Origin: Hymenopellis radicata
Lineage: Eukaryota; Basidiomycota; Agaricomycetes; Agaricales; Physalacriaceae
Direction: 5' to 3'
DNA: 64,000 nucleotides
Assembly: GCA_015501595.1 (NCBI GenBank)
Contig: JADNRX010000031.1
Coordinates: 1-64,000 of the forward strand
A program made the translations under genes and the position numbers. Shown here piece by piece: positions 1 through 44,386 of the stretch. The notes under the pieces are model-generated. The model was given only the letters and a program-made list of their open reading frames with translations, ran no database searches and had not been told where the DNA came from. Position 1 is the first letter of the stretch, and every line of letters starts with the position of its first letter.

Positions 1-240
1 AGGTTTTGTACCCGTGCCCGTACTAGGTATCATACACGCTCATGGCACCCATTGTCGTTTGACGTTTCCATGTTCATTGTTGACTGTCCATTGTGGCCGA
101 AAGCAGAAGGTGTTACGGTCAGGTGACCGTTTTGCGTGACAAGCCAGTTGGTTTCGATTGCCGAATTGGGCCTTTCTTCTCTTCAAAAACCGCGACACAC
201 CCGACAGCGCCCTACCCCCGGCCAGCCTACCTCCCCCAGC

Positions 241-21808: not shown

Positions 21809-24125
21809 ATGGATGTCAATCTCGAATTGCTGCAAGGAGACGACGACGGCTGCTGGCCAGAGACTGAAGGACGCTGTAAGTTGCCCTTCTCAACTGGCCC
21901 CCTTACCAACCTGCAGCTTGATGAAGACGGAGTTTTGATGGACGATCCCAGTCAACCAGTCTTAATCCTCTGTCGTGAGTGTCATTGTGGCTTGTCCAAT
22001 AATCAACTCCCTAGACTTTCTTTGGCAAACAGCACATTTGTGGGACCTGTTCCTGCTGAATTGGAGGGGCTCACACCCATTGAGGAGTCTATCATTGGCC
22101 TTTGTCGTGCCAAAATGATGGTAGTGCAGTTACGGTCCGAAAAAAACACAAGCTCAAGTGACGACGAGGATGGTCATACTGTAAACCAACGAGCGTTGAA
22201 GGGAAACATTATTGTGTATCCCCAGAAACCGTCGGCTATCGCCCGCTGTCTGCCGCCTTCCATGGAGGAGATCACGGCACCTATATGCGTATTATTTGTT
22301 GGCTCTAGTAAACCAAGTGATGATTGGCTTAGGCGGCACGCGAAACCACTTGCAGTCAATGGCCAGCGCCTTTGTCAAGCTCTTACTTGGCTTAGAGGTA
22401 ACAACCCCTTGTACAAAGGTATAGAATTGAATGAGTCCGTTTTTGAGGGAGTTTGACGCCCGTCCCTGGATTCCCGTGCCTATTCAACATGTTATTCCCT
22501 CGTCGGCTAGTGAGACACTGACTAGTAGGTATGACTCTTCAGCCGTTCCACCTGATGACTTATCAGATGCGCCCGAAGGCATTGATGAAATCCCCATGTC
22601 TAATGTGTTCATAACGGACCTGGACATGAGCGACACTTCCCGTAATCTTCGAGTAGGTGCCTTGCGTCACGTGAAAGAGAGAGACGGCCATTACATCGAG
22701 ATCCCTCACGACAGGGAGCCCTCTAATGAATTCTTTAACAGAGATTTGTTTCCAAAAGTCTATCCTACCTTATTTCCATATGGCATTGGCGGCTTAGACG
22801 ACAAAAGTCGATCCACGCCCATATCTTTAAAGTCACACATCAAACATCTGTTGTCACTACGAGATCGTCGGTTCCAGCAACACGCCTCCTTCTCTTTTTC
22901 TGCTTTCAACATCTTGCAGCGGCGTACCGCCTTGCTACATACCCATCTGAAAACTAAAAGGTCGCATTTCAAACAGGTCGCTCAACGCTTTGTCAACGTA
23001 AGCGCGGACACCCTGCGGAGTGTGGCGGAAAAACAGAATAATGGCGATTTCAGTGAGCCGCAGTCCAAGGAGGAACAAGAGGCTCATGATCTTCTTCGTG
23101 AGGTACGAGCAGTCACTCAACATGTTCCGGGTTCTGCTAGCTCCAAGACCGTAATGAGAAACGAGATACGCGGACTAATCATGGATAAGGGTGTTCCAAA
23201 CTTTTACATCACTGTCAATCCAGCAGATGTGTATAGCCCTGTTTTGAAGTTTTTAGCAGCCGAAGACATGGACTCCTTCGATGTTGATAACATGATGCCA
23301 GACGACATCCCTAATTATTGGGAGCAAAGCCTGATGCTCGCCAAGCATCCAAAGCTAGCCGCTGAGTTTTTTGATTTGTATATGAGGGCGTTTATTAAGA
23401 GTATTCTAGCATGGACCGGCGATGAGAAGACGGTATCTGAAGGTGCACTCGGGGTGGTCAAGGCATATTACGGTTGTGTTGAAGCACAGGGCCGTGGTAC
23501 CCTACATTGTCATATGTTAGTGTGGGCTGAGGGCGGTCTGAATCCTGATGAGATCAAGCGACGTATTTTAGCCGGTACGGACGGCGACTTCCGTGAACGA
23601 TTGATTGCCTTTCTTGATGATAGCATCAGTAATTATGTTCCTGAGTGTGATGAACATTCCCCGCCGGTGCCGTCGGACCGTTATCATCCCTGCTCCGTTC
23701 GCAGCTCTCAGAGCTTCTCGGTTGAGACGCCCGAACAACTGCATGCGCGCCGACGTGATACAGCTAACCTCGTCGAAAAATGTCAATGCCATTCTCATAC
23801 GGCGACTTGCTTCAAGTACTGTAAGCCTGGTGAAATTCCCACTTGCCGATTTGAACTGGACGAAAGCAACACGCGAGCGTCTACATCGTTCAATGTGGAT
23901 ACAGAAGAGCTCGAGTTGAGATGCATTGACGGCATGATCAATAACTACAACGAAACTGTTCTTCGGGCGTGCCGATGTAATATGGATATCAAATTCATTG
24001 GCTCAGGAGCCTCGGCGAAAGCTGTTTTGTACTACATCACAGACTACATCACCAAATCCGATTTAACTTCCCACGTACTGTACTATTACGACCTAGTCTT
24101 CATGGGGCGTTACCCGTTACGCATA
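21809..24125 (+). pseudogene. Helitron Rep (HUH nuclease) region
   Basis: Begins in one frame (MDVNLELLQGDDD..) and passes after a +1 shift near 22446 into a second frame (FDARPWIPVPIQHV). Then comes the Helitron helicase-like N domain: KGVPNFYITVNPADVYSPV, and GRGTLHCHMLVWAEGG, in which HCH is the metal-binding HUH motif. Downstream, CRCNMDIKFIG and VLYYITDYITKS carry the catalytic tyrosines (Y-x3-Y). These act on single-stranded DNA to start rolling-circle transfer. All key residues are present, so decay is recent. The frame ends in unrelated GC-rich sequence after YYYDLVF. Confidence 0.8.
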
Positions 24126-24310
24126 CTCTTCACAGATGTTGCTCTTCATTCAGGGTCCAATTTCCTTATATGGACAGGCGGGAGCGGCGGCAGCAGCCGC
24201 CGCCTTAAAAAATTTCCTTTTTGGGCCTTACCTGGGGCCCAATTTTGGCCGTTACGCGTTATGGTAGCATGAACTCTTCATTTCACAGGCCCCCGTTACC
24301 CGTTATGCGA
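24100..24310. mobile_element. Possible small insertion inside the Helitron
   Basis: Between the Rep and helicase parts the protein loses family resemblance for about 200 bp. The segment contains CGTTACCCGTTACGC at its left and CGTTACCCGTTATGC at its right as direct copies, CGTTACGCGTTATGG in between, and a GGCGGCAGCAGCCGCC palindrome. I could not define ends or a target duplication. Confidence 0.4.
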
Positions 24311-27300
24311 AGACTTGCATGTAATAGTACAGTAACGTTTGCAGCTCTGGAACAGGCCGTACTTCGATCTTGTGAGCGTATGGATGAATCATCCGAACCA
24401 GTATCCGTGGAGGCTCGTGGTAAACATTTGTTGCAGTCATGTGCATACAGGATGATGGCCCAGCAAGAATTGTCTTCTCAACAAATTGCTTCTTATCTCA
24501 TGGAATATGGGGACCACTACACTAGTCACGAGTATTCTAATTTGTTCTGGCGTAGCTTTGAGAACATCATTGAGAAACAGGACCCTTCCCCCGAATGCCA
24601 GCCTCTTGCGAAGTTTAATGCTGACTCGGAGATACCCGCCGAAAGTTTGCCTCCCACCGACGACATTCCGGCCGTTGTCGATAACCAGGACGGTCTCGCT
24701 AATATCGGTAATATCGGTGATCCCACTTTTTGGGATGATTCGCGAACAGTCGACGATGATGCCACAAGCGAGGGACATGTCGAAGATACTGATTCCGAAG
24801 AAGAAGATCCCGACGATCAGCCACGACGTAGTAGGCGCAAACTTCAGGTTTTGGACGAAGTCGAGGCGGATGATGATAGCGAAGAGGTGTCGCTCACTGT
24901 TGATTCGGCTGGTAATTTGGTTGCGCGTGCATCGCATGTCTCCGACTATGTGAATCGAGGGAGTTTCCTGAAAGGCATGTCCCTATGGGAATACACGGCA
25001 CGAGTGCAGAAGGTCAAAGGATTCGTGGGCAAAGCATCTGAAGATAGGATTGATGACCAGTTCGACATAGAAGAGTCAGAACCTCTAAGTGTACACGCGA
25101 TTCCCAGCCGTCTGCAAGACATTAACTGGACCTCGTTAGACGCCATACTTGAGTATAGAGGGCGCGAACGACCGAAGTTTATGTTTATGAGTGATCACAA
25201 TGAATATAATACTCACCACCAGGTTGTGCTCGCCCCCCTTTTGAGGCATATACCGGTGCCAATAGGTCCTGGAATACCTCGTCGTGATTGTCCCGCCCTT
25301 TACACTAGGTATTGCCGGCTCATGCTTATTCTTTTTAAGCCATGGGGAAGTTCAGCAGACCTTCGACATCCCGGAGAAAGCTGGCCTAATGCTTTTGATA
25401 GGTTTGAGAAGGAAGCAGAACCACACGTCAAGTTTGTGATCAATAACATGCAGCTCCTTCATGAGTGCCATGATAGCAGAGACGATCATTTCGCTGCGCG
25501 AAGAGTACGCGTCAACGACAAGGGTCCCACTTTCCGTAAATTGAGGGATAATGTGTTCGAAGATGACTTTGGTTTCGAGGAGGATGTGGATGAAGCTATT
25601 TCTAAACACTTAAGTGATATGGATCGCTATTATTCTGAGTCAATCCTAATTTCCGATAAGATTGCGCACGAGTGTTTTGTGGCGGCTAGCAAGTCAGGGA
25701 TGTTCGCCTGTTCCAGTGACCCTCCTCCTCCGATCCCAGAATTAAATGCCGATGATGAGGTACAAGTCGCCGGCTTTGAAGGTCCCTATGAGTATCTCTG
25801 GGATGCCGAGTACAACAAGCGTCAGACCGATATGAAAGCTAGCTCGTCTTGTATCGCTGTCCCTCATCCCCCTCCCAACCAATGCCAATCATCAAGCTAC
25901 AGTGGATCTGTCAGTGATGGCACAGCGTTCCGGCAGATTGCTAGTGTTGACATAGATGACATAGAGCCATCTGTCAGACATGATATTCTGTCGACTAAGA
26001 AAACGCCAGACGTCGACATTGAGGCTTTCATCGAAAAGAAGACGTTCAATACCGAACAGGCAAGGTTGTTCCCTTTGATCGCTGAACATAGCCTTACTCA
26101 TAACAGTCCACAGCTTCGGATGTTCCTGAACGGACCTGGCGGTACTGGGAAAAGCCATGTCATCAATGGCCTAAGAGAGTTCTTCGAGCTACGAAACCAA
26201 TCTCGTCGCTTCCGGCTGACTGCTTATACAGGCGTGGCTGCACGTAATATACAGGGAGTAACCCTACACTCCGCGTTAATGTTGGATCGTAACCGTTCAA
26301 AGGATAAAAACCGCACCAAAACAAAGACAGAACTTGTTTCCATGTGGGACGGAGTTGATTATCTGTTCATAGATGAAGTCTCCATGATAGGCTGCAAGTT
26401 CCTGTTGACCATTGCGAGGGCCTTGAATGAAGCAAAGGAGTCGCCAGCCTTGTTCGGTGGGATCAACGTTATTTTTGCTGGTGATTTCGCGCAGTTGCCC
26501 CCCGTAGGCGACACCAATCTATATCGCAGATTACGCGATGATTATAGGGCAGACACAAAAGAGAAACTCCTACTTGGCAAGCTGCTTTGGTATAGCGTTG
26601 ATACCGTAATCACACTACATGAAGCCATGAGACAACGCGGAGATAGCAATGATGTCTTTCTTGCTTTGTTGTCCAGATTGAGAAGGGGGGCATGCACCAA
26701 AGCTGATTACGCCTTACTGAATACCCGCCTGATCTCAAGAACTAACCCAGATTGGACAGACCCAAAGTGGAAATCAGCACCCATCATCGTATCTGGCAAT
26801 GCAACCAAGGATCTCTTGAATCAACAAGCCACTCACGCATATGCACGGAAGTCAGGCCGTCCTCTTCATTATTACTATGCTGATGATCGACATCGGGGAC
26901 GCGAGATTTCTGAGTCTACACGAGAGCTCTTGATGCGTAAACATTCTGGTAAGACTGGCCACAGAATGACCGCCGTCCCTCTCGTTATTGGCATGCCAGT
27001 GATGATTACTGCTAATCATGATGTATCACATGGTGTGGTGAACGGGTCAAGAGGCATCCTACGCAAGATACGATATTGAGTTGATGAACAGGGTCGACGG
27101 CAGTGTTTATCCTGTGTTGTCGAGGTGCCTGATATGGACGGTCCACCTTTGACTGGATTAAAGACAGGCCACGCAGCAGTTATTCGAGATACAGTTGACT
27201 TACGCTTCACTCATAAACATCAAGGCAGGACTCTTTCATTGAAACGCAGTCAAATTCCTCTTCAGCCCGGATTTGCAGTAACTGCTCACAAGGCCCAAGG

Positions 27301-27529: not shown

Positions 27530-28809
27530 TAGAGATCGGCACGAGTGTATACCCGGGTGCACCCGGCACCCGTCCGGCAAATACTTGCTACCCAAAAGCC
27601 GGACTTGCCACCTGGAAAAATACTTGCCACCCGCAAGTACTTGATCCGCGGGTCAAGTACTTGGCAAGTACTTGCTCGAAAGGCAAGTATTTGCACCATC
27701 CGGGTGGCAAGTACTTGCCCACATTCCGCTCATGATTCGTGCCCGCCGCCGACCCCCGAGCAATTGCGCGGGGGTTAGAGACGTGCACGATACACATTTG
27801 CGAGGCCCCGGCCACTTGCGAGAGCAAGAACCGCGGCTCAATAAAGTGCATAAATGCGGGGGTGGGTAAGGGAAGCAGTGGCGGTGAGGAGATGGTGTAT
27901 GAGGAGATGCCAGGCACAAGGAGATGCTGGACGTGAGGCAGCCGAGGACAGACTGCGCGACGTCAACGAGAGAAGAAAAGCAAAGATGTAGTAAATACGC
28001 GCCTGTGAGGCTGGATGCGTCCGCGACGCCGTTCAGCCCCGGTCACTGACCACCCGCACCTCCAGTAACATCGACATCGTCAATCGGCGCCGTCATAAAG
28101 ACGAGCGCCGCACGTTCCGGGCCCCGTCGAACTGGTGCCGTCGTGCAGACGAGCACCAGTGTATTGCAAGGCGGCGGGGTGGCAGACAGCCAACCACGCA
28201 CGAGAATCCAAAGAAAATAGTCCAGTATCGTTGCTGCCTCGCTTGTGAGGGCTTACGCGCTGCGGGTCCTCGATAAATTGGTGTCGTCGCTAAGACGAAC
28301 ACCAGAATGCACCCCGGAACGTATCCGAGGGCGCAGCGGCTGGCGCGAAGCCAAACCGCACCACAAAAGCAACAAAACACGAAGAGGAAAAGTAGATTAA
28401 GCCCCAGAAGAAGTTCTGGAGCTGCGCAGCACGATGTTATCATCGTGCTGCTGGTGGGAGGAGGCAAAGGATTGAGATCGGAGCGCATTGATCGTTATCC
28501 GGCAACTGCCGGGACGTTCGGCGAGCTCGGCGATCTCGGAAATTCTTCGACTACGTCGTTTTTTAACGACGTTGAGGTCGTTTGACCTCAAATAAATTTT
28601 GATAAATCATCAATAATATATAGCTACCTATCTGCAAGTACTAGCAAGTACTTGTGGCAAGTACTTGCCTCGCTGAGCTCGTACTTGTCACCCGCGGCAC
28701 CACCCGTGGGAAACAAGTACTTGCCACCCGGGTGCCGGGTGCGGCACCACCCGGGTGATTGAAATACTTGCCGGCACCCGCAAGTATCTGCCACTCGTGC
28801 CGATCTCTA
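27530..28809. mobile_element. Element A: non-autonomous hAT-type transposon, 1280 bp
   Basis: Terminal inverted repeats TAGAGATCGGCACGAGTG; 8-bp duplication AAAGGCGA at 27522-27529 and 28810-28817, the hAT size. It lies inside the Helitron helicase gene; removing it and one duplication rejoins SPEEKA to IVQKELDSIRR in frame. The outer ~250 bp on each side are packed with CAAGTACTTG and CACCCGGGTG palindromes, probable transposase sites. The core has three hairpins of one design (28085-28110, 28132-28159, 28279-28304) and a further one at 28427-28450. No transposase or convincing ORF. Near-identical in plan to element B. Confidence 0.9.
28085..28450. repeat. Hairpin array in element A
   Basis: Three units follow the plan outer stem, C opposite GA, inner GTC/GAC, 5-nt loop: outer stems CGGCGC/GCGCCG, CTGGTGC/GCACCAG and TGGTGT/ACACCA, loops ATAAA, GTGCA, GCTAA. 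A fourth simple hairpin CAGCACGATG-TTAT-CATCGTGCTG lies at 28427-28450. Confidence 0.75.
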
Positions 28810-30371: not shown

Positions 30372-31704
30372 TAGAGATCGGCACGAGTGGGTACCCGGGT
30401 GCACCCGCCACCCGTCCGGCAAATACCTGGTACCCAAAAGCCGTACTTGCCACCCGCGAAAATACTTGCCACCCGCGGGTACTTGACCCGCGGGTCAAGT
30501 ACTTGGCAAGTACTTGCTCGAAAGGCAAGTATTTGCACCATCCGGGTGGGCAAGTACTTGCTCACATTCCGCCCATGATTCGTGCCCGCCGCCGACCCCG
30601 AGCAATTGCGCGGGGGTTAGAGACGTGCACGATACACATTTGAGAGGCCCCGGCCACTTGCAAGAGCAAGAACCGCGGCTTGACAAAGTGCATTAGTGGG
30701 AAGTGCAGGTGTGGGTAAGGGAAGAAGTGGCGGCGAGGAGATGGTGATCATGAGGAGATGCTGGGCACGAGGAGATGCTGGGCACGAGGAGATGCTGGGC
30801 ACGAGGAGATGCTGGGCACGAGGAGATGCTGAGCGTGAGGCAGGCAAGGACAGACTGCGCAACGTAAACGAGAAAAGAAAAGCAAAGATGTAGTAAATAC
30901 GCGTGAGGCTGGATGCGTCCGCGACGCCGTCCAGCCCGGGTCACTGACCACCCGCACCTCCAGTAGTGTCGAAATCGTCAATAGGCGCCATCATAAAGAC
31001 GAGCGCCGCACGTTGCGGGCCCCGTCGAACTGGTGCCGTCGTGCAGACGAGCACCAGTGTATTTGAAGGCAGCGGGGCCGGCAGACGGCCAACCACGCAC
31101 GAGAATCCAAAGAAAATGGTCCAGTATCATTGCTGCCTCGCTTGTGAGGGCCTACGCGCTGCGGGTCCTCGTTAAATTGGTGTCGTCGCGAAGACGAACA
31201 CCAGAATGCGCCCCGGAACGTATCCGAGGGCGCAGCGGCCGGCGCGAAGCCAAACCGCGTCGGAAGAGCCAAGGAGCATAGAGAATGAAGGTAGAAGAGG
31301 CCCAGAAAAAGTTCTGGGCCAACGAACACGACGCTGTCGTCGTGCTGTGGTGGGAGGAAGTGAGAGCTGAGATCGGAGAGGATCGATCGTTATCCGGCAA
31401 GTGCCGGGACGTTCGGCCAGCTCGGCGATCAGAGAAATTTCTTCACAACATCGTTTCTGAGCGACGTTGAGGTCGTTTGACCTCAAATAAATTTCAATAA
31501 ATCATGTTTAATATATTTATACCTCTGTGCAAGTACTAGGCAAGTACTTGCTACAAGTACTTGCCTCACCAAACTCGTACTTGTCACCCGCGGCACCACC
31601 CGTGGGAAACAAGTACTTGCCACCGGGTGCCGGGTGCGGCACCACCCGGGTGATCGAAATACTTGCCGGCACCCGCAAGTATCTGCCACTCGTGCCGATC
31701 TCTA
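30372..31704. mobile_element. Element B: second copy of the element A family, 1333 bp
   Basis: Same TAGAGATCGGCACGAGTG ends; 8-bp duplication CCCTCAAT at 30364-30371 and 31705-31712. Interior is collinear with element A, including the CAAGTACTTG-rich ends and hairpins at 30984-31007, 31030-31057, 31178-31203 and 31327-31344. It differs by a 17-bp minisatellite (GAGGAGATGCTGGGCAC) present about five times at 30750-30838 against about two in A, which explains nearly all of the length difference. No transposase. Confidence 0.9.
30750..30838 (+). repeat. 17-bp minisatellite inside element B
   Basis: About five head-to-tail copies of GAGGAGATGCTGGGCAC, the last diverged (GCTGAGCGT). Confidence 0.85.
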
Positions 31705-33805: not shown

Positions 33806-36261
33806 CTACATACATGGGCCATCCATTAATATCTTCCCCTTGGGCTGCTCCGCTTTGCTTGTCTTTCCTGCCAGATCATACTTGCCCATGGCAGTCTGAC
33901 TGTCCACTCCAATGTACTTCTCCTCGAACAAATCTGGGCGTGATTCGGTGCTGCCAGCCGCGCATACCTTATCATTGGTGTCGTATTCACGTAGCAGTAC
34001 GGCAAATTGGATGTTGCAGGTTACTCTCTGTCCGGCCTGAGACATCCAACCGCTGAGGGTGTATGCTATAAGAGCAAAGTCGCCTCTTTCGAGTTCTTCC
34101 TCGCGTTGCGGCAAGGCGTTGTATTGTACGAGCTTGAATGGCGCTCGTCCGTCGAATATAGGGACTGTGCATTGTATTAATAGCCGCGCCTTGTCAAGTC
34201 AAAAATTGTACCTGGCTCTTCATACGAACGGAGTATAGGCCCGTGTGTGACACCATCCATGGGGGTGTCCTGGTCGTCCTTACCATAGTTGCTTTGAGAT
34301 TCTATGTTCAAGCGTCACTAGCCGAACGGCTCGGTGTGGGGGGTACTCACCGTATTTAGGTTTGCGCTTCGTAACGAAAGCAATGCCGTCACCCCTCACC
34401 TCGAAGGCCGGTTTCCTATAACCGGTCAGCTTGCTTGTTGCGGCAACTATCCTGGGAAGCATCCGTTCAATTGGCTGAATACACAAGTAACGAACGGAAA
34501 CGTCGTCATCGAATGGTTCCCTCAAGTTTGAATCCGCAACACGACCTATAATAATTAGAGACAGACACGAGCCTATACTCAAGTATATTCATACTCATCA
34601 TGCGAGTAACTCATGCCTCAAGACCAATACTCACGACTCACGACTCTACTCAAGACTCTACTCTACTCAAGACTCTACTCGCGAGTATTCATGAGTCTTG
34701 AGTATATAAATACTCAAGTATACTCAAGTATACTCACCAAATTAGACAGTCGGCAGATTTATTTAAGCTAGCAAGTAGGATATTGAGTCGTATTTATATT
34801 AGTAAGGACTTTTGTTGAGACTAGAGGTAAAGGTGGAGCAGGATTACAACATATCTGCTGAGCTATTGCATGTAGATGAAGTGATGAGTATTCATGAGTA
34901 TGAGTCTACTAAATACTCATGGCACTAGATGTAGATTCACTACTCACCAAATACTCTAGACTCTACTCTACTCATCTGCGAGTATACTCTTGACTCGCAC
35001 AATGAGTACACATTTATTCACGAGTATTTTTTATACTCTATACTCGTGTCCGTCTCTAATAATAATGAAAGTAGCGTCGGGAACTTTACGTCCCCTGCTA
35101 CCCGAATAGACGTGGCGGTTCTTGAATCCAACGGTGCCGACGGTGTTATGGAACTCGCGTGGCTCCACACCGAACATAGGGAACATGTTGTTCCCGACAG
35201 CGTAAGATGAAATGTTCAATATCCGTCTGTTAATAGATATCAATAAAGCTCTGAATAACGGGCTTTATATACTTACTCGACGAATTCAGGCGCATTTCCC
35301 AAATAATCCCTCAACTTGCACCAGGGTAGACAGACCTCACGATTGCTGCCCCTGGTATACTGCAGTCCTGTTTCGGGTACGCGTGCGAGGACGGTGACGT
35401 TTGGAGGCTTGAATTCACTTCTGTATTCGTATTACAAGATCAGCAATCATTCATCGTGTACAAACTGCTGAAACTTACCGTGTCGCTTCAGCCTTATCTT
35501 CTTTGACTTCGGCACTCTTGTCTGGTGAGATGTGGAGGGCTTCGCTCTCGAGAGGCTCAGTCCCAGAATCTCCGACTTGTGAGAAGGGCGTGTCCTGATG
35601 TCCAGTGTCACCGGCTGTTTGAGAGTGCACGGCCACAGGACCAGACTCCCCCTCAGACGGGCGTCGGTAGGATGACCAGCCTTAGCTGCTGCGCCGATAT
35701 CCAGATCGTGTCCTTGCGAGATGGGCGGCCCTTGACCTTCTGTGTCTCGGTCTGTTTGAACCCGGATGGACGCGGCTCCAGGCACGTCGTCCAACGGAAG
35801 GGGAGTAGGGACAAGCGGCTTGGGAATGGCGGTGGCGTCCTTGACAGGGGTTCAACAAGTGTCATCGCAGTAGTAGTGGGTGTCTGCCCTCCAGCCCTCA
35901 TGCTCGCCAGTTTGCTTTCCATGTCAGCAGTCAGTCGGCTTGCCGTGGTCGGAAGACTGCCAAACATGCCCATTGAGCAATACACGCAGGTCGATAATGG
36001 AGTTCACATACATTGTACTGTTTCCATCTGAACTGGCCGTATCCGCATCACTAAAAACATTTCAGTTTAGGCGTCACCAGAAGATAGTTCAAGTTACCTG
36101 TGGGGACTGGGCTTAGTCTTCTTCGTCGGCGACTCAATTGACTCGGTCCGGCCTGCCGAGGCGTCGGAGTCTGCGGGTCTTTTGTAAGGATGTTCCTTCC
36201 TGCCACTCGTGGACGATCTGAAACTGACAATGAGGTGCGACGAATGGTTGTGGCTGGACAT
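33806..36261 (-). pseudogene. Lineage-specific gene of unknown function, split by element C
   Basis: Exons recognisable from ATG 36261 (MSSHNHSSHLIVSF, KRPADSDASAGRTESIES), through a basic Ser-rich part (35447-35794), SSYAVGNNMFPMFGVEPREF and KNRHVYSGSRGRKVPDATF, then after element C GRVADSNLREPFDDDVSVRY, AFVTKRKPKYGE and a last exon with ERGDFALIAYTLSGW ending at 33806. Removing element C and one duplication rejoins VPDATFII to GRVADSN in frame. A C-terminal strand pair (GDFALIAYT.., VTCNIQFAVLL) resembles that of the gene at 37902-40044, so the two may be distant paralogues. No function can be assigned. Confidence 0.5.
34556..35058. mobile_element. Element C: short hAT-type MITE, 503 bp
   Basis: Ends TAGAGACAGACACGAG and, inverted, TAGAGACGGACACGAG; 8-bp duplication ATAATAAT at 34548-34555 and 35059-35066. 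Almost the whole element is a degenerate array of ACTCAAGTATACTC, GAGTATTCATGAGTA and GACTCTACTC units. It lacks the hairpin core of A, B, D and E, so it is probably an ends-only deletion form. It interrupts the minus-strand gene around it. Confidence 0.88.
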
Positions 36262-36714: not shown

Positions 36715-37880
36715 TAGAGTTTACAAGTCCGGTTGGTAGGACCGGGTAGGACCGGCGGACCCAACCGAACTGCAACCGATTTTGGACCGGTTAGCAAGCA
36801 ACCGGTTGCCGGTTTCAACCGGTTGCGGTTGCCGGTTCTAACATTTTGCTATTTTTTGCTGGACCGGTACAGACCGGTTGAGACCGGTTGCAACCGGATA
36901 ATGTACCTATATATTAAAGATGAATTTACAATTTTTTTCTGAGTCAAACGGGCCCTTGCGTGGCCCAAACGAGCCATCTCAAGTATTTCCTCCAGATCCG
37001 GCGACTCGGGCCGAGATCCGAGGTGACGCGTAAGCATCCGATCAGTGCATCTCTCCTTCTTCTTACCTTCACTCTCACCACCACTCGTCGCCCGACTTCA
37101 AGTCGGCGATGATGGCAGCGTCACCCGACTTCAAGTCGGTGATTTCAGTACCTGTGCTCGACTTTGAGTCGGCACATCGATGGAGCAGGAGACGACTTTG
37201 CGTCGTCTCCACGGCAACAACAGCAGGACGCGTAAGCCCCTGCAAACGGGCAGCAAACGACAACCACTGGAGGAACGAGTCATGACGCCACCTGCCGCAC
37301 CGTTGAGCGCGCTTGAAGAGCGGGGGCGGTGGATACGGGCTGCCGCGTCGTCTGCAGGCGACGTAGCAGACTTGTATGTTTTTCTTTCTCTTCTTTTTGA
37401 TGTTGGCGGCGCCTGTGGGCGCCGTCAACTCTTTCGTTATACTAACTCTTTAATATAGATTACCTCTTCCTATTCACGGGTAAGCCCTCGCCTGAGGCAC
37501 CATTCCCAGAATCTATCACCATCCCCCACCTTCAATTTCCCTTCCTCCCACACCCACCTCATGTCAATCCATCATGCACCGCCTATGCTCCCGTCGCAAT
37601 TGCTGCAGGATGCGGACGGGGCATGAAAAGACAGTGAGTGTGGTGCGGGATGCGGAAGGGGGCAGTCCGTCTCAGTTCCAACCGGTCGCGACTGGTTGCG
37701 ACCACTAGTGGTCCCAACCAGTTGTGGACCGGTGAAAGACCGCAGTTGCAACCGGTCCTCGACAAGGACCGGTTGCGGTCCACGGTTGACGCAAAAAGTC
37801 GTATTGGGCAACCGGTTGCGGTTGCCGGTCCTTCCAAATTTGGGCGCCGCAACCGGACCCAACCGGACTTATAAACTCTA
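36715..37880. mobile_element. Element D: hAT-type transposon, 1166 bp
   Basis: Ends TAGAGTTTACAAGTCCGG and, inverted, TAGAGTTTATAAGTCCGG; 8-bp duplication CTTGTCTC at 36707-36714 and 37881-37888. Both ends carry arrays of ACCGGTTGC / GCAACCGGT. The core resembles that of element E (TCAAACGG, CCCTTGCGTGGC, CCGGCGACTCGGGCCGAG, GACGCGTAAGC, CAAACGGGCAGC) and holds four hairpins at 37088-37109, 37121-37142, 37153-37176 and 37188-37210. One frame (37180-37458) is open for 92 codons across the hairpins and is probably not coding. Confidence 0.9.
37088..37210. repeat. Hairpin array in element D
   Basis: Three units share bulge (C, C, T), inner stem CGAC/GTCG and loop TTCAA, TTCAA, TTTGA, with outer stems TCGC/GCGA, TCAC/GTGA and TGTGC/GCACA. 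A fourth, GGAGACGAC-TTTGC-GTCGTCTCC, has no bulge. Confidence 0.8.
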
Positions 37881-43268: not shown

Positions 43269-44386
43269 TAGAGACCTCAACGAGTCACCGAGTCACCGAG
43301 TCATCTGGTGACTCGACTCGCCTCGGGCACGTCGGCGTTCGGACTCGCGTGACTCGCGAGTCACGTAGTCACGAGTCCGGTCGCGAGTCTGAGTATGGCT
43401 CTGCTGACTGCGAGTCATCATATGATGACTCGAAAATATTTAGCTATGTAATTTATCTTAATTTACAAATTTTTGCCAACTCAAACGGACCCTTGCGTGG
43501 CTCAAACGAGCTATACGCAACAATTTCGCCAGATCCGGCGACTCGGGCCGAGTCCCGAAGCGACGCGTAAGCGTCTGATCGGGTGATATCTCTGTACCTC
43601 TTACCACCACCACGACCACCTGGGGAGCGACGATTGTCGCCCCCGCTGCTCTGACGATTGTCAGGCAGCCTGTGGGGTGTGTCTTTGGCCTCGGCTTTGT
43701 GCCGGGCCTGCTGCTGCTGGCTCTGCGCTAGCAGCAGAGCTGGAGCACGACTCGGACACTCGTTGCTCGACTTCAGGTCGGCGACGACGCTATCGGCGCT
43801 CGACTTCAAGTCGGCGCCGACATGACCGACGCTCGACTTTGAGTCGGCGTCGATAGGACGCGTAAGCCCCGCAAACGGGCAGCACACGATCCAATCACTG
43901 GATTGCCGACACCAACTGGATTGCGGTGCCGACGATGGATGAGGATGAGGATGACGACGACGACGACACCATGATGATGCGATGAGGAGGGGGATGCGAT
44001 GCGATGAGGCGGATGACGCGAGATGGACGCGACGACGAGTCGTTCGGAGTCGACCACCACCACCACCACCACCACCATCCTTCCACCCCACCCCACCATC
44101 CTTCCACCATCACCCCCACCATATCCTCATGCCCAGCTGACTGTCCCCGTGCCATTGCCCGGGGATGCTCGCTGCGCATGAATACTTGGGGGTGTATGGA
44201 CTCGCGAGTACTCGTGAGTATCCGAGATGACTCGGACTCATGGTGAGTACTCGCGAGTGGACTCGCGATGACTCACGAGTCATCGCGAGTCGAGTCCGAC
44301 GCGAGTCTGAACTGGACTTCTTTTTGCGTGGGTACCCGCGTCACGAGTCGCGAGTCTGACTCGCGTTGGACTCGTTGAGGTCTCTA
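43269..44386. mobile_element. Element E: hAT-type transposon, 1118 bp
   Basis: Ends TAGAGACCTCAACGAGTC, inverted at the right; 8-bp duplication ATGCCAGC at 43261-43268 and 44387-44394. Both ends carry GACTCGCGAGTC / GAGTCACGAGTC arrays. Core related to element D by sequence, with hairpins at 43760-43787, 43794-43819 and 43828-43853. Simple runs of CCA and CGA triplets fill 43935-44100. No transposase. Confidence 0.9.
43760..43853. repeat. Hairpin array in element E
   Basis: Three units with T bulge, inner CGAC/GTCG and loops TTCAG, TTCAA, TTTGA; outer stems TCGTTGC/GCGACGA, CGGCGC/GCGCCG and CGACGC/GCGTCG. Confidence 0.8.

Follow-up and report, generated by a model that had tools for sequence, protein, structure and literature searches.

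Elements and bulged hairpins in the window

The stretch of Hymenopellis radicata DNA analyzed here (64,000 nucleotides, hereafter the window) carries at 43269..44386, on the plus strand, a non-autonomous hAT-like element of 1118 bp, element E. Its terminal inverted repeat (TIR), TAGAGACCTCAACGAGTC, agrees at 18 of 18 positions, and the element is flanked on both sides by the 8-bp target-site duplication (TSD) ATGCCAGC. Perfect copies of this 18-mer TIR number 456 in the genome, compared with none for the reversed control. The longest stop-to-stop frame in E spans 218 codons (43453-44109, minus strand) and is of low complexity. Elsewhere in the window, two long open reading frames are found at 22431-27079 on the plus strand, which may encode a Helitron-type Rep and a PIF1-like helicase. 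A neighboring protein has BDZ89DRAFT_1129842 as its single match, at 95% identity, which points to H. radicata or something close to it as the host.

Three hairpins follow one another in E on the plus strand with a period of 33 nt, in the form an earlier note on this DNA had described. Hairpin 1 (43760..43787) is composed of TCGTTGC, a bulged T, CGAC, the loop TTCAG, GTCG and GCGACGA, its 7-bp outer stem including one T-G pair; hairpin 2 (43793..43820) has the outer stem CGGCGC/GCGCCG plus a T-A pair, a T bulge, CGAC/GTCG and the loop TTCAA; and hairpin 3 (43827..43852) combines CGACGC/GCGTCG, a T bulge, CGAC/GTCG and the loop TTTGA. At least three bulged hairpins are additional to this triplet, all upstream of it and on the same strand: one with an A bulge and a GATT loop (43623..43643), a T-bulged one with a 4-nt GATT loop (43645..43669), and one reading GGCC, T bulge, CGGC, TTTGT, GCCG, GGCC (43687..43708). 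They lie in or beside offsets 360-480 of E, a stretch absent from D, TAGAC and TAGTG elements (identity 0.0). The core of the hairpin at 43645-43669, TGACGATTGTCA, occurs at 334 sites genome-wide, against 3 in the control. A 131-nt stretch of E folds with z = -3.99, and none of 200 shuffles was equally stable. The minimum-energy fold of the isolated triplet of E has hairpins 2 and 3 paired with each other; it is the comparative data, and not the single-sequence fold of E, that favor the local hairpins. After the array comes the motif GGACGCGTAAGCCC (43856..43869, plus strand), present in identical letters in D at 37226-37239, which resembles a splice donor and is a candidate only. The motif CGCGTAAGCCC, found in element A on the minus strand at 28249-28259, recurs in E, in D and beside arrays at many loci.

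Element D (36715..37880, plus strand, 1166 bp) has the TIR TAGAGTTTA(C/T)AAGTCCGG, agreeing at 17 of 18 positions, and the TSD CTTGTCTC. Its hairpins 1-3 occupy 37085..37176 on the plus strand (37085-37112, 37121-37142 and 37153-37176), and a fourth (37188..37210, plus strand) has a 9-bp stem and a TTTGC loop with the bulge absent. The earlier note had assigned D and E the same hairpin core and entirely different outer stems, which is only partly the case. The third loop is TTTGA in both elements, but the bulge is C in D hairpins 1 and 2, and the loops of D read TTCAA, TTCAA and TTTGA. Likewise, the outer stems of hairpins 2 and 3 are changed on both sides, whereas only two one-sided wobble changes separate hairpin 1 of D (TCGTCGC/GCGATGA) from that of E.

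Two further elements with bulged hairpins lie on the minus strand. Element A (27530..28809; TIR TAGAGATCGGCACGAGTG, TSD AAAGGCGA) has T-bulged hairpins at 28085-28110, 28131-28160, 28279-28304, 28306-28337 and 28336-28359, while element B (30372..31704), which belongs to the TIR family of A and has the TSD CCCTCAAT, carries hairpins at 31029-31058, 31178-31203 and 31205-31236, all on the minus strand as well. Element C (34556..35058, plus strand, 503 bp) has TAGAG ends and an 8-bp TSD; neither a bulged hairpin nor a match to the structure model described below (R1) was found in it, and it serves as an internal negative.

Covariation and structure-based searches

The core pattern TCGACTTNNNGTCG of the hairpins was counted 436 times in the 75 Mb genome, compared with 45 for the reversed control, and it should be considered that allelic or duplicated contigs in the assembly may inflate such genome-wide counts. 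Sixty loci fetched around module matches, together with the search loci, yielded 72 triplets, 35 of which were kept at less than 95% identity; the 72 include near-duplicate contigs (L053/L054, 98.7% over 2.9 kb; L058/L061, 99.8% over 2.0 kb). Before module counts were made, 13 duplicate loci were left out (L002, L004, L008-L016, L077 and L083).

In the 35 triplets, 94.9% of 1012 cells were paired, against 89.9 +/- 0.4 in shuffled alignments, and cells with a double change numbered 61 against 21.7 +/- 4.7, a value that none of 500 shuffles reached. Pairs changed on both sides were 10 of 29 (shuffled 6.6 +/- 1.2; reached by 1 of 500 shuffles), and further pair types 26 (shuffled 23.2; 19 of 500). 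Every measure fell when the partner was slid by 1-3 columns, least so at +3 (63.9% paired, 24 cells). As these shuffles leave the relatedness among triplets in place, the changes were mapped on a tree of the 72 triplets, where 21 double Watson-Crick changes were inferred. Together, the two analyses support the earlier proposal of a covarying structural module in non-autonomous elements. Of the 216 bulge sites in the 72 modules (three hairpins each), 215 hold a bulge base, which is T at 169, C at 32, A at 8 and G at 6.

A covariance model (R1) was built from the 35 triplets, and a sequence-only model (R2) from the same alignment; E-values of R1 are rough because its calibration was shortened. 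Hairpins 1-3 of D scored 104.1 bits with R1, D itself being part of the training set. A covariance search of the kind proposed in the earlier note, applied here to the window and to loci of the same genome, did find further members: one in A (28079-28163, minus strand, E 1.6e-9, 46.9 bits) and two in B (E 2.4e-8 and 1.3e-7; 41.8 and 38.6 bits), with all seven window matches falling inside A, B, D and E. By comparison, R2 gave A 15.6 bits (E 7e-4) against the 46.9 of R1, found six other A-type loci weakly, and returned no match for B (E up to 10), nor for the transposase loci L088 and L086 described below (E up to 1), which R1 recognizes at 27.1 and 23.6 bits, respectively. Structure, as judged from these models, carries much of the recognition of the module.

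R1 gave 135 matches in the 188 kb of the 60 loci (E 0.01), with both strands counted because the hairpin arms are near-palindromic. Since these loci had been picked for module content, only their flanks constitute a test, and a comparison by eye with the modules recognized by blastn left a single match outside them (36-123, minus strand, E 6e-5). It lies in a separate inverted-repeat element (L053:1-585, G000 C600:39600-40184) with 24-bp inverted ends (GCCGCCGGGGCTCTTCAAGCCCGC) and without TAGAG ends.

Element ends and the conserved interior

The ends of module-bearing elements are of several kinds, TAGAGACCTCAACGAG (E), TAGAGTTTA(C/T)AAGTCC (D), TAGAC(G/C)TGGGCACGAG and TAGTGAATAGCCCGGG, all with 8-bp duplications. 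Exact combinations of 8-bp TSD and TIR with TAGAG ends amounted to 41 distinct cases in the fetched loci and the window. When 27 module loci were examined for any ends, 17 showed an exact 8-bp duplication with a matching TIR, including nine with TAGAC and two with TAGTG ends; usable ends were lacking at the other ten, namely at L068, where a spurious simple repeat was picked up, and at nine loci without any. The module is consequently not tied to TAGAG elements, given that the same interior is found between TAGAC... and TAGTG... ends.

Regarding classification, the TIRs of E and D, matching as given above, are as short as those of hAT elements, and the TSDs have the 8 bp of that superfamily. 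Ac and Buster hAT types have a target-site base preference, and the TSD columns of the module elements show a mild bias only. Miniature inverted-repeat transposable elements (MITEs) are under about 600 bp in size and high in copy number; copies of the E family are numerous, but with 1.09-1.35 kb they are too large for MITEs.

An alignment of nine elements was used to compare ends and interior. Among copies of the E family, identity was 0.97-1.00 in the outermost 60-nt windows and went down to 0.35 in interior ones, whereas between families the outermost windows dropped to 0.05-0.47 and two hairpin windows reached 0.60-0.83 (one shuffled control gave 0.20-0.63). Hairpins that are conserved between unlike ends are the opposite of what a passive interior predicts, and the alignment suggests that ends and interior are separate modules.

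A pair of E-type TIRs 4.5 kb apart on contig C76 had been considered as a candidate autonomous copy, but it turned out to be two inverted E-type elements, about 2.3 kb apart (L085, G000 C76:7650-12250), a matching 8-bp duplication being present at the first only. In these two elements, blastn found other parts of the module and no triplet, and R1 gave E-values of 0.02 and 0.06 only.

Hairpin arrays upstream of hAT transposase genes

Matches to PF05699 (Dimer_Tnp_hAT) numbered 70 in the genome, and three such loci, all above the Pfam cut-off, were read. Further loci were taken by similarity to one exon of the transposase on contig C683, and their upstream stretches were read; those on C280, C895, C775 and C140 are called transposase-like solely from this one-exon similarity (E 1.8e-7 to 4.2e-6). 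On the sense strand, R1 matched L088 at 202-313 and L086 at 4707-4620, which places the matches about 260 and about 480 nt, respectively, ahead of the apparent ATG. It also matched L095 (C175), whose leader is the same as that of L088, and the R1 matches represent two lineages of hAT transposase loci. Seven transposase or transposase-like loci were searched with R1 in all, and the other four (L087, L093, L094 and L096) gave no match; the best E-value in L094 was 0.068 with filters off.

Hairpins of the same architecture were also recognized by other means. L094 (C1087) has five bulged hairpins with GATT loops at 4-bp outer stems, and the near relatives L097, L098 and L099 have four, five and five, respectively, one of which shares the sequence of the E hairpin at 43645-43669 (blastn 1.7e-6); sequence similar to this E hairpin is found in stretches upstream of the transposase-like loci on C280, C895 and C775 (E 1.7e-6 to 2.1e-5). 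In a generic scan upstream of nine transposase or transposase-like loci, bulges in the 5' arm were 15 against 1.10 expected at outer stems of at least 5 bp, and those in the 3' arm 2 against 1.17; at outer stems of at least 4 bp, the corresponding values were 27 against 4.83 and 5 against 4.34. Bulges were at expectation in 30 kb of window sequence outside elements, and L093 and L087 showed no 5'-arm bulge at outer stems of at least 5 bp. The bulge named by the scanner is T in five of the 15 cases, its position often being ambiguous with a neighboring C. The same asymmetry was found in 91 module stretches, with 236 bulges in the 5' arm and 41 in the 3' arm, although these copies are not independent. 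Altogether, several hAT transposase or transposase-like genes are preceded, on their sense strand, by hairpins of the same architecture. The module, which the earlier note had placed in non-autonomous hAT elements, is not specific to them.

The context of TGACGATTGTCA was evaluated at 78 of 100 listed places out of its 334 (contigs up to C501), relative to 100 listed of the 456 TIRs and to 19 transposase places on these contigs. Of the examined places, 48 are located inward of an E-type TIR on the same strand, at a distance of 358-544 nt, and six lie 1.2-1.5 kb upstream of a same-strand transposase-like exon; the remaining 24 fall in neither class, seven of them having a TIR within 1.2 kb. Element ends were also looked for near the transposases on C683 and C658, where nothing convincing was found, the flanks read at L088 and L086 held no convincing TIR with target duplication, and no autonomous copy with E-type ends was identified in the few transposase loci read.

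Some additional observations concern these loci. A second set of hairpins with the same architecture (L089:1075-1146, minus strand; L095:532-603, plus strand) lies upstream of, and divergent from, the C683 and C175 leaders, as if another leader were transcribed in the opposite direction; R1 matched this set in both places. A shared motif, CTTAATTGGC(G/A)(T/C)GT, is found at L088:47-60, L086:4905-4892 (minus strand) and L096:598-585 (minus strand). In L088 and L086 it precedes the array by about 140-190 nt, and it represents a possible promoter element. L088 also carries GCGTAAGCCCCTGC (764-777), to be compared with the array-adjacent motif CGCGTAAGCCC, within its transposase reading frame. Finally, three transposase copies (G000 C574:147444, C683:2388 and C797:38181) are identical over 173 amino acids, which reflects either recent transposition or duplicated contigs.

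Strand and intron-like signals

When only double-stranded DNA matters, a one-sided transition in a G-C pair is equally likely to leave G-U or A-C. At the tips of the tree, changes were nearly even (25 G-U, 27 A-C), whereas over all cells G-U exceeded A-C by 107 to 39; events on internal branches were few (16 and 6, respectively). Even tips with an excess of G-U over all cells indicate that older wobble states have been kept on the plus strand.

An intron-like sequence was found downstream of the array on the sense strand in six of 35 modules (nine of 72), with 0.3 expected, and in none of the 35 on the antisense strand or upstream of the array; a stricter pattern was matched in three of 72 on the sense strand and nowhere else. 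In D, it spans 37374..37458 on the sense strand, with donor GTATGT, branch point TACTAAC and acceptor TAG, its splicing being a prediction only. E-type modules are without such a sequence, which is absent from 29 of the 35 modules in all. A permissive, uncontrolled pattern was also matched downstream of the arrays in L088, L086, L097, L098 and L099, and inside the arrays of L097, L098 and L099 as well. Depletion of upstream ATGs gave no consistent signal.

Interpretation and alternative explanations

The explanation that we favor, to which we give about an even chance, is that the array is a structured RNA leader of hAT transcripts, retained in non-autonomous derivatives and probably protein-binding. 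According to this proposal, several hAT transposase genes would carry the hairpin array between the transcription start, which would lie upstream of it, and the transposase ATG, each unit being built from an outer stem, a 5' arm with a single bulged base (mostly T/U in the elements), an inner stem of 4-5 bp and a small loop, and an intron would follow the array. Elements D and E would be derivatives of such genes that lost the coding region and kept the leader exon on the sense strand, with selection on multiplying element lineages maintaining structure more than sequence. By analogy, tandem hairpins whose bulge keeps a constant spacing from a small loop have the layout of a repeated protein-binding RNA hairpin, and the most likely task of the array would be to bind a host or element-encoded protein that acts on the transcript by governing its translation, export or stability. 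Short array-bearing elements could then share or titrate the bound protein. In favor of this proposal we count the covariation, the better performance of R1 over R2, the bias of bulges to the 5' arm upstream of transposase or transposase-like loci, the retention of G-U over A-C, the intron-like sequences confined to the sense strand, and hairpin windows that persist between TIR families while the ends diverge. Against it stand the loci that R1 misses, the lack of 5'-arm bulges at 5-bp outer stems in L093 and L087, the majority of modules without an intron-like sequence, the unchanged frequency of upstream ATGs, the pairing of hairpins 2 and 3 in the lone triplet of E, and the failure to identify an autonomous copy with matching ends in the loci read.

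The neutral reading, in which template switching maintains the self-complementarity of tandem quasi-palindromes that are inherited by descent, and the shared interior reflects common ancestry, seems to us unlikely, though to be taken seriously. It is in agreement with the tandem 33-nt period, with copies that decay normally, as seen in the even changes at the tips, and with shuffles that are uncorrected for relatedness. However, template switching tends to erase bulges, and the bulge base is kept at all but one site even though its letter varies; in addition, between families conservation is higher in the hairpin windows than at the ends, and the same architecture appears again in A, in B and upstream of transposase genes. 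We regard with much the same doubt a role at the DNA level, without any RNA function, in which the arrays would extrude as hairpins or cruciforms near a promoter or during transposition and be read by a transposase or replication protein. The G-C-rich stems would extrude, DNA hairpins also tolerate G-T better than A-C, the wobble excess is compatible with single-stranded DNA, and the hairpin sites do lie inside transposons. Nevertheless, a cruciform would use both strands, while on the transposase-sense strand nearly all bulges fall in the 5' arm, and part of the modules have intron-like sequences downstream on that same strand. Somewhat less probable again is a variant of the RNA reading in which the array is a trans-acting recognition tag, so that one RNA-binding protein, perhaps the transposase, licenses or protects short elements with different ends; if so, ends and RNA tag would evolve as separate modules.

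That the hairpins are precursors of small RNAs made by Dicer, either a source for host silencing or a regulator of the element's own, we find improbable: several short hairpins in a row and weak matches to microRNA families would suit it, but the matches in E are far under gathering scores, at about 21-28 nt the hairpins are short, and there would presumably be little gain for an element from keeping a silencing trigger. A protein-coding origin is very improbable indeed. The 33-nt repeat could correspond to 11 codons of a repeat in a minus-strand protein, as an open frame exists in E (the 218-codon frame described above) and one minus frame is open in 58 of 72 triplets; still, 51 of 72 have an open plus frame, the variability at the three codon phases is 0.186, 0.177 and 0.218, the interval between cores measures 32 or 34 nt in 25 of 155 cases, and coding would not predict double compensatory changes.

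Relation to known systems and significance

Searches against Rfam 15 gave no match at the gathering threshold in the module, the only threshold matches of the window being two tRNAs, and the sub-threshold matches in E are scattered and mostly to microRNA models. MS2/PP7-class coat-protein operator hairpins and iron-responsive elements carry one bulge in the 5' arm, separated by a few base pairs from the small loop above it. The likeness of the mushroom arrays to them is one of how they may work (bulge placement and small loop), since sequence, loop and bulge are different and the arrays are tandem, sit in a eukaryotic DNA transposon and have a putative protein partner. Imperfect palindromes with an extrahelical T, recognized on one strand, form the ends of IS200/IS605 elements, where they are terminal DNA sites in bacteria. 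They share with the mushroom hairpins a hairpin with a bulged T, but the latter are internal, in elements with 8-bp duplications, some of which have intron-like sequences.

With regard to novelty, text searches of the open-access literature found no earlier description of the module, which within this scope agrees with the earlier note's view that it is undescribed. The hairpins at excision ends treated in PMC2803484 are a different feature from the mushroom array. Element E and its relatives are like other non-autonomous hAT deletion derivatives in having short TIRs, 8-bp duplications, many copies and no evident transposase gene, while the E family differs from the usual ones in its size (about 1.1-1.35 kb) and in structured hairpin windows that are more conserved between families than the ends. 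These are hAT derivatives with an unusual structural cargo.

In a non-autonomous DNA transposon, whatever lies between the ends is usually regarded as filler, because movement needs the ends only. In the mushroom elements described here, part of the interior is conserved, as structure, across families with differing ends. If the hairpins act as RNA, fungal DNA transposons would have a step of control, or of parasitism, at the RNA level.
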